64,000 nucleotides of DNA from Agromyces agglutinans (GTDB lineage Bacteria > Actinomycetota > Actinomycetes > Actinomycetales > Microbacteriaceae): assembly GCF_009647605.1 (NCBI RefSeq), contig NZ_WJIF01000004.1, positions 62,001 to 126,000 of the forward strand. The letters are read 5' to 3'. Positions within the stretch are counted from its first letter, which is position 1. Every line of letters begins with the position of its first letter. Positions 1 through 8,414 of this stretch are shown in pieces. The notes under the pieces are model-generated. The model was given only the letters and a program-made list of their open reading frames with translations, made no database searches and was not told where the DNA came from. The position numbers and the translations under genes were made by a program.

Positions 1-1031
1 CCGAGCTGAGCGAATACGAGGCGGCGTATGCGTCCTTCGTCACGAAGTGCGACGAGCTGCGCATAGGTGGCGGCAGCCTGGATGACCTGGAGGTCGAGGA
101 TGGCAGTGTGCTGGCGGAGCACCTTGTCACCGCCACACGCCTGACGCCAATCCTCTATGAGAAGTTCCACGGCAATCCGCGCCGTATCAAGCGGTTCCTC
201 AACGACCTGAACGTACGCCAGGCCGTTGCCCGGCGTCGTGGATTTGAGCTGGAACCGGATGAGGTTGCCAAGCTCATGGTGCTGGAGCGCATTCTCACCG
301 ATGACTTTGAAACCGTGCTCGGCTGGCTCGCGTCGAACCAGCTACGCGACAAACTTGACGCGCTCGACGTTGCTGCGAACGGTCGCGTAGAGACGACCGA
401 GGAACCATCGTCTGAGGCCTCAGAGGATGAGGCGCCGAAGGAGCGCGGCGTCAAGAAGAAGCCCGTCGATACCGAGCCGGAGCCAGAGCCCGCTCGTGAT
501 GATGACTTCAGTGACACCCTCCGGCGCTGGGCGAAACTCCCGCCCATGCTTGATGCATCCGCTATCTCCGGGTACCTCTACCTCGCCGCCTCATTTGCCA
601 AGATCGAGGTCATCGACACAGGGCTACCCGAGCGTCTCCGCGACCTCGCGGTCGCCCTGACGTCAAGCCTCAAGCTCGACCGCGCAGGCGTCACCGACGA
701 AACCATAAAGCTGCTACCGGAGGGTGACGCCCAGATCCTGGTCGGCCATCTCGGACGTCGCACTCGCGATCAGCCGGGGCTGCAAAAGTTCACCGTCGAG
801 AGTCTGCTTCGCCTGGCTGCGCAGCAGCCCACCACCCAGCCGAATGTTGTGGCGGCGCTGAGGAGTCTTCCTGCCGTCCACGTCGAACCGGCGACGATCA
901 TCAAGCTTCGACCGCTGGATCAGACGATCTATCGGCCGGTGCTTGAGACCTGGCGGGCTGGGTCAGACGACCAGCAACTCCAGCAATCTGTGGGGATCGT
1001 CGAGACGGCGTGGAGCAGCAATGGGAACTAG
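1..1031 (+). CDS. qatA: QatA-like KAP-family P-loop ATPase, C-terminal part (5' cut by window edge)
   Basis: The reading frame is open from base 3 with no start, so the gene begins before the window; about 343 codons are visible. The motif GNPRRIKRFLN (about base 171) is the helical signature found after the ATPase core in KAP P-loop NTPases. An acidic Glu/Pro-rich linker (about bases 390-500) and an alpha-helical tail follow. Walker motifs must lie upstream and cannot be checked. It overlaps the next gene by 11 bases and heads an operon whose other members match QatB, QatC and QatD, so the assignment rests on C-terminal motif plus context. In Qat defence the ATPase is the presumed energy-using or sensing subunit. 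Codon use is less GC-biased than in genes after 5.8 kb, which suggests transfer. Confidence 0.8.
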   Translation, partial: ELSEYEAAYASFVTKCDELRIGGGSLDDLEVEDGSVLAEHLVTATRLTPILYEKFHGNPRRIKRFLNDLNVRQAVARRRGFELEPDEVAKLMVLERILTDDFETVLGWLASNQLRDKLDALDVAANGRVETTEEPSSEASEDEAPKERGVKKKPVDTEPEPEPARDDDFSDTLRRWAKLPPMLDASAISGYLYLAASFAKIEVIDTGLPERLRDLAVALTSSLKLDRAGVTDETIKLLPEGDAQILVGHLGRRTRDQPGLQKFTVESLLRLAAQQPTTQPNVVAALRSLPAVHVEPATIIKLRPLDQTIYRPVLETWRAGSDDQQLQQSVGIVETAWSSNGN

Positions 1032-1860
1032 CGGCTCATTCGGCGGCAGCGGCGGCAAGGACGCAGGTGACCTCCGCGACAACATTGCGGCCTGGCTTGA
1101 CGCCGCAGGTGGGCCAGGCGGCGCCGATGGCGTTGACGCGAGCGGCGCGGACGGAGCTGACCACCCTTCTGATCAGCCGCGTCCCAGAACGCCGGGGCAG
1201 CCGCGCGTAGACCTCGGGCCGGCGCTTCGCGTACTGCTCAACTCGCGCGGACGCGGTGGCCGTAGCGACGGCCCGGGTGGCGGCGGTGGCGGTTCCCGAG
1301 GTGGAGGCGGTGGCCGCTCATCAGGTGGCGCCACCCGCTCCGTCGGTCGGTTATCTCGGGCAGCTGGGCGAGCTGGGCGGCTTGCGCTTGCCTACTCGTC
1401 TGGAAACCGGGAGGCCCTGCGCGAAGCTGGCCTCAACTATGACGAACTGCAGTCGCTTGGTGACCCTGTCGCTATCGGGCTCAAGATCATCGAGACCGCC
1501 TTCGAGTCCCAGGCCGATAGCACACTTGCGGATGCCGAGGAACGCGACATCGTCGCGACCGTCGTCGAGTGGATCCTGGAGCAGCCTGCGGATCATCCGC
1601 CCACACCGGAGGATGTCGTTAGGAAGTCGATCGAGACAACGATCGCGGAGACCGCGCTGACCGAGGTGTCAGCAACCATCTACGCCAAGGACGCCAGCTT
1701 CGAGAAGCGCCGCAGCCTGGAACGACAGATCCGTGATGTGGCAGCGGAGTACGCGACCCAGGCAATCCTGAGCCCGGCAGGCGCGACCGAGCAGCAGATG
1801 GCGCAGGCCATCGAGAACGGCATCCGCGACATCGGGCAGATCTTCGGAGTCAGGTCATGA
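1021..1860 (+). CDS. qatB: QatB-like protein of QatABCD anti-phage system
   Basis: 279 aa. The ATG at 1021 lies inside the end of qatA and gives the N-terminus MGTSGSFGG, which resembles the Met-Gly-Thr-Ser start I recall for QatB proteins; the longer frame from 943 would hide this. Residues 1-110 are Gly/Ala/Ser-rich and probably disordered, with a run of Gly and Arg-Gly-Gly at about 78-105. Residues 125-279 are predicted helical. No catalytic motif is visible, as is usual for QatB. It overlaps qatC by 4 bases (ATGA), implying coupled translation. Function within Qat is poorly defined; a role as scaffold or as substrate of QatC is possible. Identity rests on N-terminus, length and position between the ATPase and the QueC-like gene. 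Confidence 0.8.
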   Translation: MGTSGSFGGSGGKDAGDLRDNIAAWLDAAGGPGGADGVDASGADGADHPSDQPRPRTPGQPRVDLGPALRVLLNSRGRGGRSDGPGGGGGGSRGGGGGRSSGGATRSVGRLSRAAGRAGRLALAYSSGNREALREAGLNYDELQSLGDPVAIGLKIIETAFESQADSTLADAEERDIVATVVEWILEQPADHPPTPEDVVRKSIETTIAETALTEVSATIYAKDASFEKRRSLERQIRDVAAEYATQAILSPAGATEQQMAQAIENGIRDIGQIFGVRS

Positions 1861-3155
1861 CCCGACTACTGCTCACGCTCTCCGAGGCAGCTGCTGATGC
1901 CGCCCTCGAGGAAGGCGGCTTCGATGAGGTCTTCCTTTGGACGCGCAACGGCCGCACCACCTTCACTGGCGGTGTCGATCCCCACCTGACTGGCCTTGGC
2001 GTGGTGAACCCACGCAACGTCGACCTCGTCCGGATTGCGCTCGGTGTTCTTGCCGCTGATCGATCAGTGCACCGTGAGGCCGGAGGCTCGAGCTGGAACG
2101 CCCGGGACTTTGACCTCACCGTTGAGGTGACCGATCCTGGAACCTGGGCGCAGCATGCCGAGCAGCTGTCCCGTACGGTCGGGTTCCTCTCGGGTGACAG
2201 CTGGGCATTCAGCTTCACTCAGGCTCCTTCGGCTGAGGCGACCGGACTGCCGATCGAGGAGCAGCACCACGACCGGACGGTGCTTCTGAGCGGGGGCGCT
2301 GACTCGGCCGCTGGCGCACTGTTGTCCGCAATCGAGCTGGGCGAGAACCATTCCCAGTCGCTGGTGTCTCATTACAGCTCCACCGCGATCTCCCCGGTGC
2401 AGCAGGGCATCGTCAGCGCGATCACCGAACTGGTACCCGGCATCCGGCAGGTGCATCATCAGTTCCGCCTCCATCGTGGATCGAAACGCCTTGACGGTTC
2501 ATCGTTCCGCAGCGAGACATCGACGCGGACGCGCTCACTGCTTTTTCTTGCGCTCGGGCTTGCTGTCGCTGAGCGTGCTGAGTCGACGCTCTGGATCGCC
2601 GAGAACGGCTTCGCATCGCTCAACCCGCCGCTCGGCCCCGATCGCCGAGGCAGCCTGTCGACGCACACCACCCATCCGCGCTTCCTACGCGAACTGACTG
2701 CGCTTATGCAGAGCATGGGTGGTCATGGCCTTATCGAGAACCCCTTCGAGACGCTCACGAAGGGCGAGATGTTCCGCCGTGTGTCAGATGCCGTTGGCAT
2801 CGACGCCGCCTCGACGTACCTCAGCAGCACAAACTCCTGTTCACACACCGATGGGCGCTACAGCGGCGCGCCAGCCGGTTCTTCCTGCGGCGTCTGCTTC
2901 GGCTGCCTCGTCCGTCGAGCAGCATTCACCGCCGCCGGGATTCCAGATGCCACGACCTATCTCTCCGAAGAGTCGGGTGGCAGGTACAGCGCGTTCGTCC
3001 GGCAGAAGACGATCGTTGAGCCCCTCCGTGACTTCGTCGACCGGGGTATCCGCCCGCGCGATGTGATGGCGATGTCGCTGCCGGAGGGCTACGCCGCGCA
3101 AGACGCGTTTGCGCTGTCCCAGCGCGGAGTTGACGAACTGCGGGGACTCCTTTGA
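1857..3155 (+). CDS. qatC: QatC, QueC-like PP-loop ATPase of QatABCD defence
   Basis: 432 aa, longer than housekeeping QueC (about 220-240 aa), with an extra N-terminal domain of about 135 residues. The PP-loop SGGADS is at residues 145-150. Four cysteines fit a QueC-type zinc site: C328, then C344, C347 and C350 in CGVCFGC. QueC makes 7-cyano-7-deazaguanine. No queuosine or deazaguanine pathway genes (queD, queE, folE) are nearby, and the gene sits between qatB and a TatD-like nuclease, so a defence role is far more likely than tRNA modification. The start overlaps the qatB stop as ATGA. The stop overlaps the qatD start as TGATG. Active-site residues appear intact. Confidence 0.9.
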   Translation: MTRLLLTLSEAAADAALEEGGFDEVFLWTRNGRTTFTGGVDPHLTGLGVVNPRNVDLVRIALGVLAADRSVHREAGGSSWNARDFDLTVEVTDPGTWAQHAEQLSRTVGFLSGDSWAFSFTQAPSAEATGLPIEEQHHDRTVLLSGGADSAAGALLSAIELGENHSQSLVSHYSSTAISPVQQGIVSAITELVPGIRQVHHQFRLHRGSKRLDGSSFRSETSTRTRSLLFLALGLAVAERAESTLWIAENGFASLNPPLGPDRRGSLSTHTTHPRFLRELTALMQSMGGHGLIENPFETLTKGEMFRRVSDAVGIDAASTYLSSTNSCSHTDGRYSGAPAGSSCGVCFGCLVRRAAFTAAGIPDATTYLSEESGGRYSAFVRQKTIVEPLRDFVDRGIRPRDVMAMSLPEGYAAQDAFALSQRGVDELRGLL

Positions 3156-3943
3156 TGGCACCCCAGCTTCCCCCGCTCGATCTGCATGCGCATGTCAACC
3201 CGAAGACGCGCCCCGCCGACCTCGAGCGGCTCGGCGCGGTCGTATTCGCGGCGACCCGGTCGTTGGATGAGTACGAGACCGTCAGAGCTCGCCGCGATCA
3301 GGTCACGATCTGGGGCGTTGGTTGCCATCCAGGCGTAGCGCAGGCGCAGCAGGACTTCGATACCGAGAGGTTCACCTCGCTACTCACGTCGACAGCTTTT
3401 GTGAGTGAGATCGGGCTGGACGGGCGCTCAAAGGTGCCCCTTGTGGATCAGGAGCAGGTGTTCGCCTCAGCACTTAGCGCGCTTCAGAGGACTCCCCGCA
3501 TCGCTTCGATCCACAGTTCAGGTGCGTCGGGCCGCGTCCTCGACGCACTGGAGCGCACGCCGATCAAGGGCGCAGTACTCCACTGGTGGCGCGGCACCGA
3601 GGCCGAGACGTTGCGGGCGATCCAACTCGGCTGCTGGTTCTCGATCAACGCCGCAGGTATGAAGTACTCGGCCGACGTCTCGCTGATCCCGCTCGATCGG
3701 ATTCTTACCGAGACCGACCATCCGTCGGGTGATCGCACATCCACCTTGCCGCGACAGCCAGGGTCCGTCGGCGGCGTCGAACAGGCGCTGGCGAGGGAGT
3801 ACGGCATCGGCGCCCAAGATGTCCGCCGGCGGCTCTGGACGAACCTCGCCCGCCTTGTGGGCGAGACGAATGTTGAAGACCTTCTCCCTGCCGCTGTCCG
3901 ACGGATGATCACCTTCGCGCGTGCGAACGGAGCGCCGCGATGA
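3155..3943 (+). CDS. qatD: QatD, TatD-family metal-dependent DNase of QatABCD defence
   Basis: 262 aa from the ATG at 3155, which overlaps the qatC stop (TGATG); a TTG three bases upstream is an unlikely alternative. It is an amidohydrolase-fold TatD protein with all metal ligands visible: H11 and H13 in LDLHAH, the GCHPG loop at 56-60, E85 in SEIGLDG, H120, H143 in HWWRG and D188 in TETDHP. TatD enzymes are divalent-metal nucleases; in Qat systems this subunit is required for phage defence. Its length matches the family. The stop overlaps the start of the following HEPN gene as ATGA, so all five genes from qatA on form one translationally coupled unit. Confidence 0.9.
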   Translation: MAPQLPPLDLHAHVNPKTRPADLERLGAVVFAATRSLDEYETVRARRDQVTIWGVGCHPGVAQAQQDFDTERFTSLLTSTAFVSEIGLDGRSKVPLVDQEQVFASALSALQRTPRIASIHSSGASGRVLDALERTPIKGAVLHWWRGTEAETLRAIQLGCWFSINAAGMKYSADVSLIPLDRILTETDHPSGDRTSTLPRQPGSVGGVEQALAREYGIGAQDVRRRLWTNLARLVGETNVEDLLPAAVRRMITFARANGAPR

Positions 3944-5394
3944 AGCCAGCCAAGGAGACCTCGGCAGTCAAGCTCCCGTTTGAGACCGGCGAGTACCTCA
4001 TCACGTGGCGGGTGCCCGATCATAGGGGCGGCCATCTGCCGGTCCCGGGACTCCTGACCGTCGAGCAGGGGAACTACCCGACCGGGGTTCTGTACGGCGA
4101 TCTACCGATCGAGTGGGTGTCCGAAGGGGCGACCGGAGTCGCCTCGTTCCCGCAGCGGCACACCTTCGACGTCCTCACGGGCCGACTCTCAAGCGGGGCG
4201 TACGTGGCCCTGATGAACGGCGAACTCAGCTACAGCTTCCCAGGAAACGGCCGAGCCGTGGGAGCCTTCGCAGCACTGTCGCTTGACGCATTCGACACGT
4301 CGGGACACCGGAAGTACGCCTCCATCGAACTCCAGATCGAGGGGCTGGAATCGGTCGCGGGGGTCGCCCCAATCTCGCGCGTTAAGATGCCTATGAAGGC
4401 CGGCGACGAGCCAGTCTGGGAAGCCACCGTCGACAAGGACGCCAAGTTCACCTGGAGCGTCGGCGGCCAGTCGATGACTTTCAGCTACGACTACAGCGTG
4501 CGGGCGCTCGACGGCTACGAGTTCAGGATGGCCTTCGGCCCCGTCCTGCGCCTCACCTCAGAAGAGCCACTGACGGTTGTCGATTGGTGGCTTGAGTGGG
4601 TACGGCCTCTCCGTCAGCTCATCTCGCTCCTGACGGGTGCTCCCCGCGAGGTTCGGTACCTTCTCGCGGTGGTCGACGAGGCCGCGCCGCGCTCGCACCG
4701 CGACCAGGTGTTCGGCTGGGACATCACCCACCTGCCCGTCAACTCAACCCGCGCTGCGGTCGAGGAGATTCGTTCGGCGGTCAACCTTGCGAGCGACGAT
4801 CTGAGCTTGCTCGACCTACTGCATGCCTGGCAGCGACAGATCGCCGCCAGGCACCCCCTCTTTGAGACCTACGGTGCAATGGCAACGGCTACCGACCAGC
4901 ATCCCCGCTCGAGGTTCCTGCTTCTGCTGCAGGCACTGGAGGGATCGTACGGCTCCGAGAACCGCGCCAAGCATGCGGCGGACAAAGAAGCGTACGGCGT
5001 CAAGCGGGAGGGCCTACTGGCGCGTGCCCAGCAGCTTCTCGAGAAGGCCGACTTCACATTCATCTACAAGAACCTTCGTCGGGAGGCTCAGCAGGGCCTT
5101 GACTCGGCGCTCGCGGATCTGCTGAAGCGACTGCCGGACGAGGTCTCTGAGGAACTCACGAAGACCGAACTGATCAGGGCTGTTCGCAAAGCAGACACCG
5201 GCAAGGGCACGCTCCCGCTTCAGACCGCACTCACGAGAGCCCGGAACACCCTGTCACACGGTTCGGGGTCATTCGAACCACAGCACCTCGCCATCGTGGC
5301 CAACATCCTTGAGCGGGCGGTGCGTTCTGAGGCCATCCGATTGCTTGGTGCTCCGCTCGATTCGCAAGAGCGCGCAGCCAACGGGGAGCGCTGA
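3940..5394 (+). CDS. ApeA-like HEPN-domain protein, fifth gene of the Qat operon
   Basis: 484 aa. Residues 1-300 resemble the beta-rich N-terminal region of ApeA-type anti-phage proteins: an early PGLLTV element, and later FLLLLQALEGSYG at about 327. The C-terminal third is helical and carries the HEPN RNase signature R-x4-H as RNTLSHG, with R435 and H440. HEPN proteins are typically RNases that cleave tRNA or mRNA and stop growth during infection. The start overlaps the qatD stop by ATGA, so it is translated with the Qat genes and is not a neighbour by chance. QatABCD is described as four genes, so this is an added effector or a second defence module. The family call is from motifs only; a generic HEPN protein is the alternative. 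Confidence 0.75.
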   Translation: MKPAKETSAVKLPFETGEYLITWRVPDHRGGHLPVPGLLTVEQGNYPTGVLYGDLPIEWVSEGATGVASFPQRHTFDVLTGRLSSGAYVALMNGELSYSFPGNGRAVGAFAALSLDAFDTSGHRKYASIELQIEGLESVAGVAPISRVKMPMKAGDEPVWEATVDKDAKFTWSVGGQSMTFSYDYSVRALDGYEFRMAFGPVLRLTSEEPLTVVDWWLEWVRPLRQLISLLTGAPREVRYLLAVVDEAAPRSHRDQVFGWDITHLPVNSTRAAVEEIRSAVNLASDDLSLLDLLHAWQRQIAARHPLFETYGAMATATDQHPRSRFLLLLQALEGSYGSENRAKHAADKEAYGVKREGLLARAQQLLEKADFTFIYKNLRREAQQGLDSALADLLKRLPDEVSEELTKTELIRAVRKADTGKGTLPLQTALTRARNTLSHGSGSFEPQHLAIVANILERAVRSEAIRLLGAPLDSQERAANGER

Positions 5395-5480: not shown

Positions 5481-5745
5481 AGCTGGGGACCGGTACTCGA
5501 ACCGCACGCTCGGCTACCTCACGCTGTCGGCGGAGGACACTCGGCTTCCGGGTGGGCATCGCGATAACGGCGCACTTCCGCCAGTGTTCGAGCCGGGTGA
5601 CCTTCCGCGACCTTGCGACGATGGCGGCGGCGCGCGCGACGGGCGGCACGATCCGATTGTCGGCGAGCGTGTGTTCAGCGACGGTACGACGCTGGACCGC
5701 CGTGATCGCGAGCGGGGAGGGGGCTCTGTCGTCGCGGCTCGGTGC
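5481..5745 (+). pseudogene. Glutaminase (GlsA) remnant, frame-broken
   Basis: Conceptual translation across frames gives glutaminase pieces in order: NRTLGYLTLSA (about 5500), AHFRQCSSRVTFRDLATMAA (about 5570), DPIVGERVFSD (about 5653), then RRWTAV (about 5695). These match NRALAYLTLSA, AYFRQCSISVTARDLATMAA, NPITRERVISED and ARWTSAV of the intact glutaminase at 7191-8414. At least three frame changes are needed and neither end of the gene is present. It is a decayed, diverged paralogue rather than a recent copy. It lies directly after the Qat-HEPN operon and may mark the island border. Bases 5395-5480 and 5746-5843 hold nothing else recognisable except the ribosome binding site of the next gene. 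Confidence 0.7.
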
Positions 5746-7190: not shown

Positions 7191-8414
7191 TCACCGGGCG
7201 AGCACACCCTCGGGGTCCCGCACGACCACCTTCGGACCGCCGCCGTCGGCCCGGTCGCCCGCAACGCCCGGTGCCGACTGGAACAGCCGGGCCGCGGTGT
7301 CGCCGACGCGCGTGACATCGGTGAAGTCGAGCACGAGGCATCCCTCGTCGCTCAGCAGTGGACTCAGCCGCGCGAGCACCTCCTCGGCGCCGGCGAAGAA
7401 GAGTTCGCCGCGGAGGGCGGCGACGGTCTCGGCGCCGTCGCGCGAGAGCGACGCGATCGGCGAGAGCGGGTCGCCGCGGTGCTGCAGCAGGTGCAGCTCG
7501 AACCGCGCCGACATCGCCTCGAGCATCGCGACGCCGCGCACGCTGTTGCCCTTCGCGTCGAGGCGCGGGCTGAACGTGCCGATGCCGAACTGCCCCGGAA
7601 GCACCGCCGAGATGCCGCCGCCCACCCCACTCTTCGCCGGCAGCCCCACGCGGAGCAGCCAGTCGCCCGACTCGTCGTACATGCCGCAGCTCGACATGAC
7701 GGCGGAGGTCCAGCGCGCGGCATCCTCGCTGATCACCCGTTCGCGCGTGATCGGGTTCACCCCGCCGGTCGCGAGCGTCGCGGCCATCGTGGCGAGGTCG
7801 CGGGCGGTCACCGAGATCGAGCACTGGCGGAAGTACGCGGTCGTCGCGACCTCCACCGGCGAACCGAGCGTGCCGGCCGACAGCGTGAGGTAGGCGAGCG
7901 CGCGGTTGCGATCGCCGGTCGCGTGCTCCGACGAGAAGACGGCCTCGTCGACGGCGAGCTCGCGTCCGGCGAAGCGCTGGATGCCCCGGTGGATCGCATC
8001 GAACTTCTCGTCGGCGGTGTCGCCCGGCATGAGCGACGACATCACGATCGCGCCGGCGTTGATCATCGGGTTCAGCGGCCGCCCGGTCGCGAGCTCGAGG
8101 CTGATCGCGTTGAACGGTTCGCCGCTCGGCTCGATGCCGACGTGCCGCATCACCTCGTCGAGGCCGAGCGCGTCGAGCGCAAGGGCGAACACGAACGGCT
8201 TCGACACCGACTGGATCGTGAAGTGCGTCTCGGTGTCGCCCGCCTCGTGCACCACGCCGCGCACGCTCACGAGCGCGACGCCGAGCGGATCGGGATCGAC
8301 GCGCGCCAGCTCGGGGATGTACGACGCGACCTCGCCGCCCGTGCGCGGGCGCACCTCGTCGAGCACGGATTCGAGCGCGGAACGAACCGGATCGCGGACC
8401 TCGGCGGCGGCCAT
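7191..8414 (-). CDS. glsA: Glutaminase with C-terminal STAS domain
   Basis: 407 aa. Residues 1-300 are a serine-dependent beta-lactamase-fold glutaminase (L-glutamine to L-glutamate plus ammonia). The catalytic S69-V-S-K72 is in TIQSVSKPF, with the conserved NAGAIV and FRQCSISVTARDLA blocks further on. Residues about 310-407 form a STAS-like domain (LVLDFTDVTRVGDTAARL), as in the long form of actinobacterial and vertebrate-like glutaminases. STAS domains bind nucleotides or mediate protein contacts, so activity may be regulated. It is convergent with the small acidic gene (13-base gap) and divergent from the membrane protein at 8540. A decayed paralogue lies 1.5 kb away at 5481-5745. Confidence 0.93.
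   Translation of the reverse strand: MAAAEVRDPVRSALESVLDEVRPRTGGEVASYIPELARVDPDPLGVALVSVRGVVHEAGDTETHFTIQSVSKPFVFALALDALGLDEVMRHVGIEPSGEPFNAISLELATGRPLNPMINAGAIVMSSLMPGDTADEKFDAIHRGIQRFAGRELAVDEAVFSSEHATGDRNRALAYLTLSAGTLGSPVEVATTAYFRQCSISVTARDLATMAATLATGGVNPITRERVISEDAARWTSAVMSSCGMYDESGDWLLRVGLPAKSGVGGGISAVLPGQFGIGTFSPRLDAKGNSVRGVAMLEAMSARFELHLLQHRGDPLSPIASLSRDGAETVAALRGELFFAGAEEVLARLSPLLSDEGCLVLDFTDVTRVGDTAARLFQSAPGVAGDRADGGGPKVVVRDPEGVLAR

Follow-up and report, generated by a model that had tools for sequence, protein, structure and literature searches.

Is a predicted RNase encoded directly behind a Qat antiphage operon the effector of an extended Qat system, or a separate defence system that travels with it? 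The question arises from Agromyces agglutinans, in which qatABCD is followed by a gene for a 484-aa ApeA-like HEPN protein. The preliminary description of this locus had offered both readings. We analysed a stretch of 64,000 nucleotides (hereafter the window) corresponding to positions 62001-126000 of contig NZ_WJIF01000004.1 in a 3.9 Mb genome of 26 contigs. The QatABCD system was reportedly described by Gao et al. in 2020. Comparison with other genomes established that the combination is real, that it recurs in one mobile Qat lineage and that it pairs two known kinds of system. At other loci Qat was lost and the HEPN gene was kept, and purifying selection on the HEPN gene is seen where Qat is absent. 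Published Qat operons consist of four genes (PMC13279940; PMC7699616). No description of Qat combined with an ApeA-like HEPN gene was found in the literature searched, mostly without subscription journals; none of the matching passages in papers containing both Qat and HEPN terms connects the two.

Identity of the Qat and HEPN genes

The 3' end of qatA, the genes qatB, qatC and qatD, and the HEPN gene occupy window positions 1-5394. The complete qatA gene was read from L003, which contains 12 kb of upstream sequence and the start of the window (window position = L003 position - 12000). No frame of the five-gene set that lies wholly inside the window is interrupted, and qatA is open over its whole length. 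The features are listed below.

1..1031, plus strand: qatA, C-terminal part (PADLOC QatA, E 4.7e-26 on the window part)
L003:11148-13031, plus strand, starting ~0.85 kb before the window: qatA, complete gene (PADLOC QatA, E 4.8e-80)
1021..1860, plus strand: qatB, 279 aa, MGTS start and Gly-rich tail (position, MGTS, relatives)
1857..3155, plus strand: qatC, 432 aa, QueC-like (PADLOC, E 5.5e-69; NCBIfam, E 5.2e-76)
3155..3943, plus strand: qatD, 262 aa, TatD-family nuclease (PADLOC, E 1.1e-34; Pfam TatD_DNase, E 1e-26)
3940..5394, plus strand: ApeA-like HEPN protein, 484 aa (Pfam ApeA_NTD1, E 2.5e-11; structure model with a predicted local distance difference test score, pLDDT, of 89.9)
4003..4644, plus strand: ApeA_NTD1 region, residues 22-235 (Pfam; mainly beta strands in the model)
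4747..5391, plus strand: HEPN domain, residues 270-484 (entirely helical in the model; pLDDT 92.6 when modelled on its own)
5242..5259, plus strand: HEPN motif R435-N-T-L-S-H440 (alignment of 39 sequences)

The qatA-B-C-D order with a KAP NTPase as QatA identifies the operon as QatABCD, and PADLOC matches to QatA, QatC and QatD bear out the identities first proposed. QatA contains a Walker A motif (GAWGSGKT) and a Walker B-like motif (VVVLVDDLDR). The expected residues were also located in QatC, in which SGGADS at residues 145-150 (window 2289-2306) and Cys 328, 344, 347 and 350 form a QueC-like core, and in QatD, in which H11, H13, E85, H120, H143 and D188 constitute the full set of what we take to be the TatD-type metal ligands. 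In gene order, KAP NTPase, MGTS QatB, SGGxDS QatC with four Cys and TatD-type QatD the operon is like known QatABCD systems, whereas the overlap of qatD with a HEPN gene is unlike them. The Qat proteins are also divergent, since QatC (256 bits) and QatD (134 bits) fall under the NCBIfam cut-offs of 280 and 230 bits. QatB matched no PADLOC or NCBIfam QatB model; it was assigned from its place in the operon, its MGTS start and its 83-92% identity to QatB of the three nearest loci (L013, L014 and L015).

Profile matches and structure models place the fifth protein in the HEPN superfamily as an ApeA-type member. The ApeA half of the original assignment was supported by Pfam ApeA_NTD1 (PF18862), which matched with 44 bits against a cut-off of 25.5 and also matched 37 of the 39 family members overall. 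Pfam HEPN_Apea left the window's own protein unmatched at E<=1 but matched 13 of the 39. PADLOC returned PDC-S58 (5.8e-5) and Cas13-ApeA (1.1e-3), and its Cas13-ApeA model PDLC01679 matched 16/39 members at E<=0.001. R435, N436, L438 and H440 are invariant in all 39 aligned sequences, and R435-H440, noticed at the outset, is the sole R-x4-H in the protein. When the HEPN domain model was used in a structure search, HEPN structures topped the fold list, the nearest being HEPN toxins and Csm6. Like the ApeA/ApeA-BMEI1217 clade (PMC3710099; PADLOC Cas13-ApeA, PDC-S58), the protein combines ApeA_NTD1 with a C-terminal R-x4-H HEPN domain and is associated with restriction-modification (R-M) operons; unlike that clade, it lies below the HEPN_Apea profile and behind Qat.

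The ATGA overlap between qatD and the HEPN gene is present, and had been taken as a sign of coupling. Junctions along the series are -4 nt (mod-res), -4 (res-qatA), -11 (qatA-qatB), -4 (qatB-qatC), -1 (qatC-qatD) and -4 (qatD-hepn), where mod and res are type III R-M genes upstream of qatA. Because the res-qatA overlap is identical, the qatD-hepn overlap gives no special support for coupling. The same overlap also occurs inside Qat, and we rejected the argument that it shows functional coupling.

Distribution of the HEPN gene among Qat loci

QatC matches were found in 13 of 398 genomes of the family and 8 of 396 of the order; the two sets overlap, and with two matches shared they yield 19 loci. 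The ApeA-like HEPN gene was present at two of these (the window and G323) and absent from 17. A search of the same sets with the HEPN protein gave 4/398 and 4/396 matches, and only the window's genome and G323 were common to the QatC list. In a wider set of 29 Qat loci, qatD was recognisable in 27 and an ApeA-like gene stood behind it in four, a count from a biased set, as Propionibacterium and Oerskovia entered it through the HEPN gene. The 18 phylum-level matches comprised the window's genome (G000) and G215, both already counted, L080-L083, which were fetched and of which two lack a recognisable qatD, and 12 weak matches that were left out. No ApeA-like match was found in the 17 plasmid Qat regions opened, from 115 plasmid records with a QatC match.

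In a tree of 19 rows the QatC proteins of the four HEPN-carrying loci formed one clade (support 98/99). The nearest QatC proteins from loci without the HEPN gene were those of G503 (74% identity) and of a Rhodococcus plasmid. An IS1380 transposase separates two pieces of an apparent qatA on a Rhodococcus pyridinivorans plasmid (L059:1470-5103). Among 60 QatC relatives on viral contigs (L097-L156), QatD was found downstream in 12, a match to the window's QatA in 9 and an MGTS-like QatB frame in 11; these sets may represent a reduced or different system, or may reflect limits of the queries.

HEPN loci with Qat, with Qat remnants and without Qat

Close relatives of the HEPN gene were found at seven loci in named genomes or metagenome-assembled genomes (74-88% identity) and in G323 (93%). 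Three other actinobacteria, G323, Propionibacterium sp. oral taxon 192 and Oerskovia turbata, have all five genes in this order, and the 4-nt overlap is present in all four loci including the window. We examined 14 of 17 HEPN loci, leaving out G370 (partial), G753 (25% identity) and plasmid H3 (same scores as H2). Intact qatABCD was present at four, Qat scars with the HEPN gene kept at two, and no Qat at eight. The preliminary description had allowed that a fifth gene found mostly away from Qat would speak against its proposal, and this is what was observed (10 of 14 loci lack intact Qat); yet among the nine loci at >=74% identity, window included, four have Qat and two others formerly had it.

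The HEPN gene is intact at both scar loci. In Microbacterium sp. cf046 (L012) the order is helicase, mod and res genes, then the initial 89 nt of qatA, a degraded qatD end and the HEPN gene. The qatA remnant (75% over 92 nt) gave E 3e-12 against the window and 2.7e-13 against Oerskovia; the qatD 3' remnant is weaker, with a gapped score of 17.0, the highest score at 1977 random locus positions being 16.0. In Arthrobacter sp. ES3-54 (L008), codons 1-89 of mod are fused to the last 47 codons of qatD, directly before the HEPN gene, and this remnant matched Oerskovia at 80% over 110 nt (E 6e-24). The converse was seen in Oerskovia, in which qatA-D are open and the HEPN reading frame is disrupted beyond residue ~372. 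Because the 394-aa form named O. turbata (P0033) represents four contigs, this is unlikely to be one sequencing error.

Qat scars were searched for and not found in L010 and L011, which are complete close loci without Qat, and in the HEPN tree both fall outside the clade containing all Qat and scar loci (support 99/95). L009, inside that clade, has no qatD in the 493 nt available before its HEPN gene. No Qat match was found in the stretches fetched around distant relatives (28-39%; L016, L056, L057 and plasmids L062 and L063). Given this distribution and the HEPN tree, the simplest history is that the HEPN gene first existed without Qat and joined it once, after which Qat was lost at least twice with the HEPN gene kept, and the HEPN gene decayed once with Qat kept.

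Three relatives encode a protein of 874-894 aa after the HEPN gene (L010:11591-14215, L011:11531-14215 and L015:4193-6829). Pfam finds AAA/SMC-like ATPase parts in the L015 protein, which appears PHP-like at its start, and one weak partial match occurs in the window's genome.

Selection on the HEPN and Qat genes

Ratios of nonsynonymous to synonymous substitution (dN/dS) were calculated by the Nei-Gojobori method for ten HEPN pairs. The ratio was 0.12 for window-G323, with Qat at both loci, and 0.12 (window-L008) and 0.18 (window-L012) with a scar locus on one side. L010-L011, a pair with neither Qat nor scars, gave 0.18, indicating purifying selection, and the highest value of the ten was 0.26 (window-Propionibacterium). 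For qatA, qatC and qatD, window-G323 ratios were 0.10-0.22. From these data we conclude that selection maintains the HEPN gene whether Qat is present or absent.

The upstream part of the island

Three further genes precede qatA in L003.

L003:3284-6205, same strand as qat: SNF2-type helicase (SNF2/DrmD-like)
L003:6267-8171, same strand as qat: type III mod
L003:8168-10912, continuing in another frame to 11151, same strand as qat: type III res, frameshifted

The res gene split in the window's genome is a single frame of ~990 aa in L008 and L012. At 7 of 13 loci, with Qat or without it, the HEPN gene has R-M or restriction-type helicase genes upstream; L009 was excluded from this count since it starts 493 nt before the HEPN gene. 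The count combines Pfam and PADLOC on selected neighbours with tblastn using the window's helicase, mod and res. With Pfam likewise run on selected neighbours, tblastn with these three queries gave no match in L011, L013, L014 and L056.

The G+C content per kb is ~0.59-0.67 in the operon, 0.67-0.73 in the 3 kb that flank it upstream and 0.71 immediately after the HEPN gene. This lower value suggests, short of proof, acquisition from elsewhere, and the island was probably acquired horizontally. A glutaminase remnant adjoins the island at window 5489-5713, with ~47% protein identity to part of an intact glutaminase encoded at window 7191-8414 (minus strand).

Other genes beside Qat operons

The view that Qat always ends at qatD was rejected, since genes of other families stand behind qatD elsewhere, as in two further actinobacteria (G729 and G215) and on a Sulfitobacter plasmid. 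In G729 an Abi_C protein, which we take to be HEPN-like, is encoded on the minus strand (L051:7667-8482) and overlaps qatD by 8 nt; type III mod-res precedes qatA there. A DUF3644/EC042_2821 protein is encoded ~55 bp after qatD in G215 (L040:9115-10116). On a Sulfitobacter plasmid (L087:5526-7082) an LA2681-family HEPN gene (Pfam HEPN_LA2681, 1.5e-37) lies 101 bp after qatD, and on an Agrobacterium plasmid (L090:1-344) such a gene lies 281 bp before qatA. EC042_2821/DUF3644 and LA2681 are both given as HEPN families (PMC3710099). In total, 13 plasmid records contain LA2681 relatives, and LA2681-family HEPN genes adjoin Qat in 2 of the 13 plasmid Qat regions compared for neighbours. Those 13 records do not include a Roseivivax plasmid, although its QatC shares 90% identity with the Sulfitobacter one, so the LA2681 neighbour is optional. 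None of these HEPN genes was found at the 12 viral-contig loci with qatD.

A gene pair for an AAA/OLD-TOPRIM protein and a UvrD helicase, presumably Gabija-like, follows qatD in 2/13 plasmid regions (Agrobacterium, L090:5632-7930; Delftia, L095:5581-7945). TIR and SIR2 genes also occur near Qat, the latter as we assume for G072. An NYN-domain gene lies ~225 bp after qatD at L039:8459-8998. The adjoining of HEPN genes to Qat is thus a lead and not a demonstrated enrichment, the Gabija-like pair being equally frequent in this small sample. One could imagine that HEPN RNases of several families (ApeA-like, DUF3644/EC042_2821, LA2681 and perhaps Abi_C) dock repeatedly at the Qat-adjacent slot and are tripped by products or states of Qat and neighbouring DNases, such as deoxydinucleotides, with Qat as the trigger for an exchangeable RNA-cutting suicide module. 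We give this idea little probability, and it is weakened because the Gabija-like pair follows qatD as often as LA2681 HEPN adjoins Qat.

Interpretation of the combination

The explanation that we consider probable is that the HEPN protein is an autonomous ApeA-type abortive-infection RNase that forms the final tier of an island of stacked defences (type III R-M, Qat, HEPN), and that its gene took a fixed place after qatD in a single mobile Qat lineage. We take it to be an ApeA-type RNase with its own sensor because its gene is found, and selected, without Qat. The beta-rich N-terminal domain would sense an infection signal, and the HEPN domain, probably a dimer around R435/H440, would cut RNA and so stop growth, independently of Qat and at a point where Qat and R-M have failed. 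Its place directly behind qatD would allow the layers to be co-transcribed and co-expressed and to move together, and they may help each other. A general association of HEPN proteins with R-M, in which they would form a suicide layer, has been proposed, and the same source records the ApeA clade as R-M-embedded in epsilonproteobacteria (PMC3710099). The island resembles 'two-pronged' HEPN-R-M operons such as PrrC-PrrI (PMC3710099) in encoding a predicted RNase suicide layer with a DNA-targeting system, and differs in that its R-M and HEPN genes are separated by an entire Qat operon.

Several observations weigh against full autonomy. The HEPN gene occupies the same overlapped place in all four loci of its Qat clade, spanning three families, and is intact in three; it is under purifying selection beside Qat (window-G323); and HEPN proteins of other families adjoin other Qat operons. 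Fixed place and selection would also fit a useful HEPN-Qat partnership. In its strongest form the HEPN protein would be the RNase effector of Qat in this clade, switched on by QatA or by QatC-modified QatB, and translational coupling would maintain the ratio. The single supported QatC clade, the neighbouring HEPN proteins elsewhere and the comparable divergence of Qat and HEPN genes between the window and G323 are consistent with such a role, and how QatB modification restricts phage is an open question (PMC13279940). However, QatBC is the working core and by itself suffices against some phages in the systems of Pseudomonas and E. coli (PMC13279940), the gene is missing from 17 of the 19 sampled Qat loci, including G503 with its closely related QatC, HEPN was twice retained after Qat deletion, and Oerskovia combines open qatABCD with a frameshifted HEPN gene. 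An obligate five-gene system, with the fifth gene beside Qat and not elsewhere, does not agree with 4 of 14 HEPN loci and 2 of 19 Qat loci having both. We therefore regard an extended Qat system as unlikely; of the two readings first offered, the merging of two modules fits better than an extended Qat whose effector cleaves RNA.

The two systems could also communicate through a metabolite and not through protein contact. Deoxydinucleotides are said to activate ApeA, according to the title of a preprint in a reference list. If this holds here, we would guess that the DNases encoded upstream could feed the HEPN protein: DNA breakdown by type III Res, TatD-like QatD or the phage would yield deoxydinucleotides, and binding of these to the ApeA-type N-terminal domain would turn on the RNase, converting an attack on DNA into a shutdown of RNA. 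Only a profile match links the protein to ApeA proper, QatD could destroy dinucleotides instead of making them, and res is frameshifted here, and we consider this route distinctly unlikely. That two defence modules merely abut, linked without benefit, would accord with the commonness of 4-nt overlaps within the operon, the 17 Qat loci without the gene and the other defence genes that adjoin Qat. The pair has, however, been kept in four genomes of three families with differing genes upstream of qatA, which makes pure accident of neighbourhood very improbable. An autonomous layer fixed in one Qat lineage is the explanation we retain. That lineage, with its predicted RNase and with natural relatives missing either half, is a ready set for probing joint action of Qat and HEPN, and the combination would extend to Qat the pairing with HEPN suicide RNases that has been proposed for R-M.

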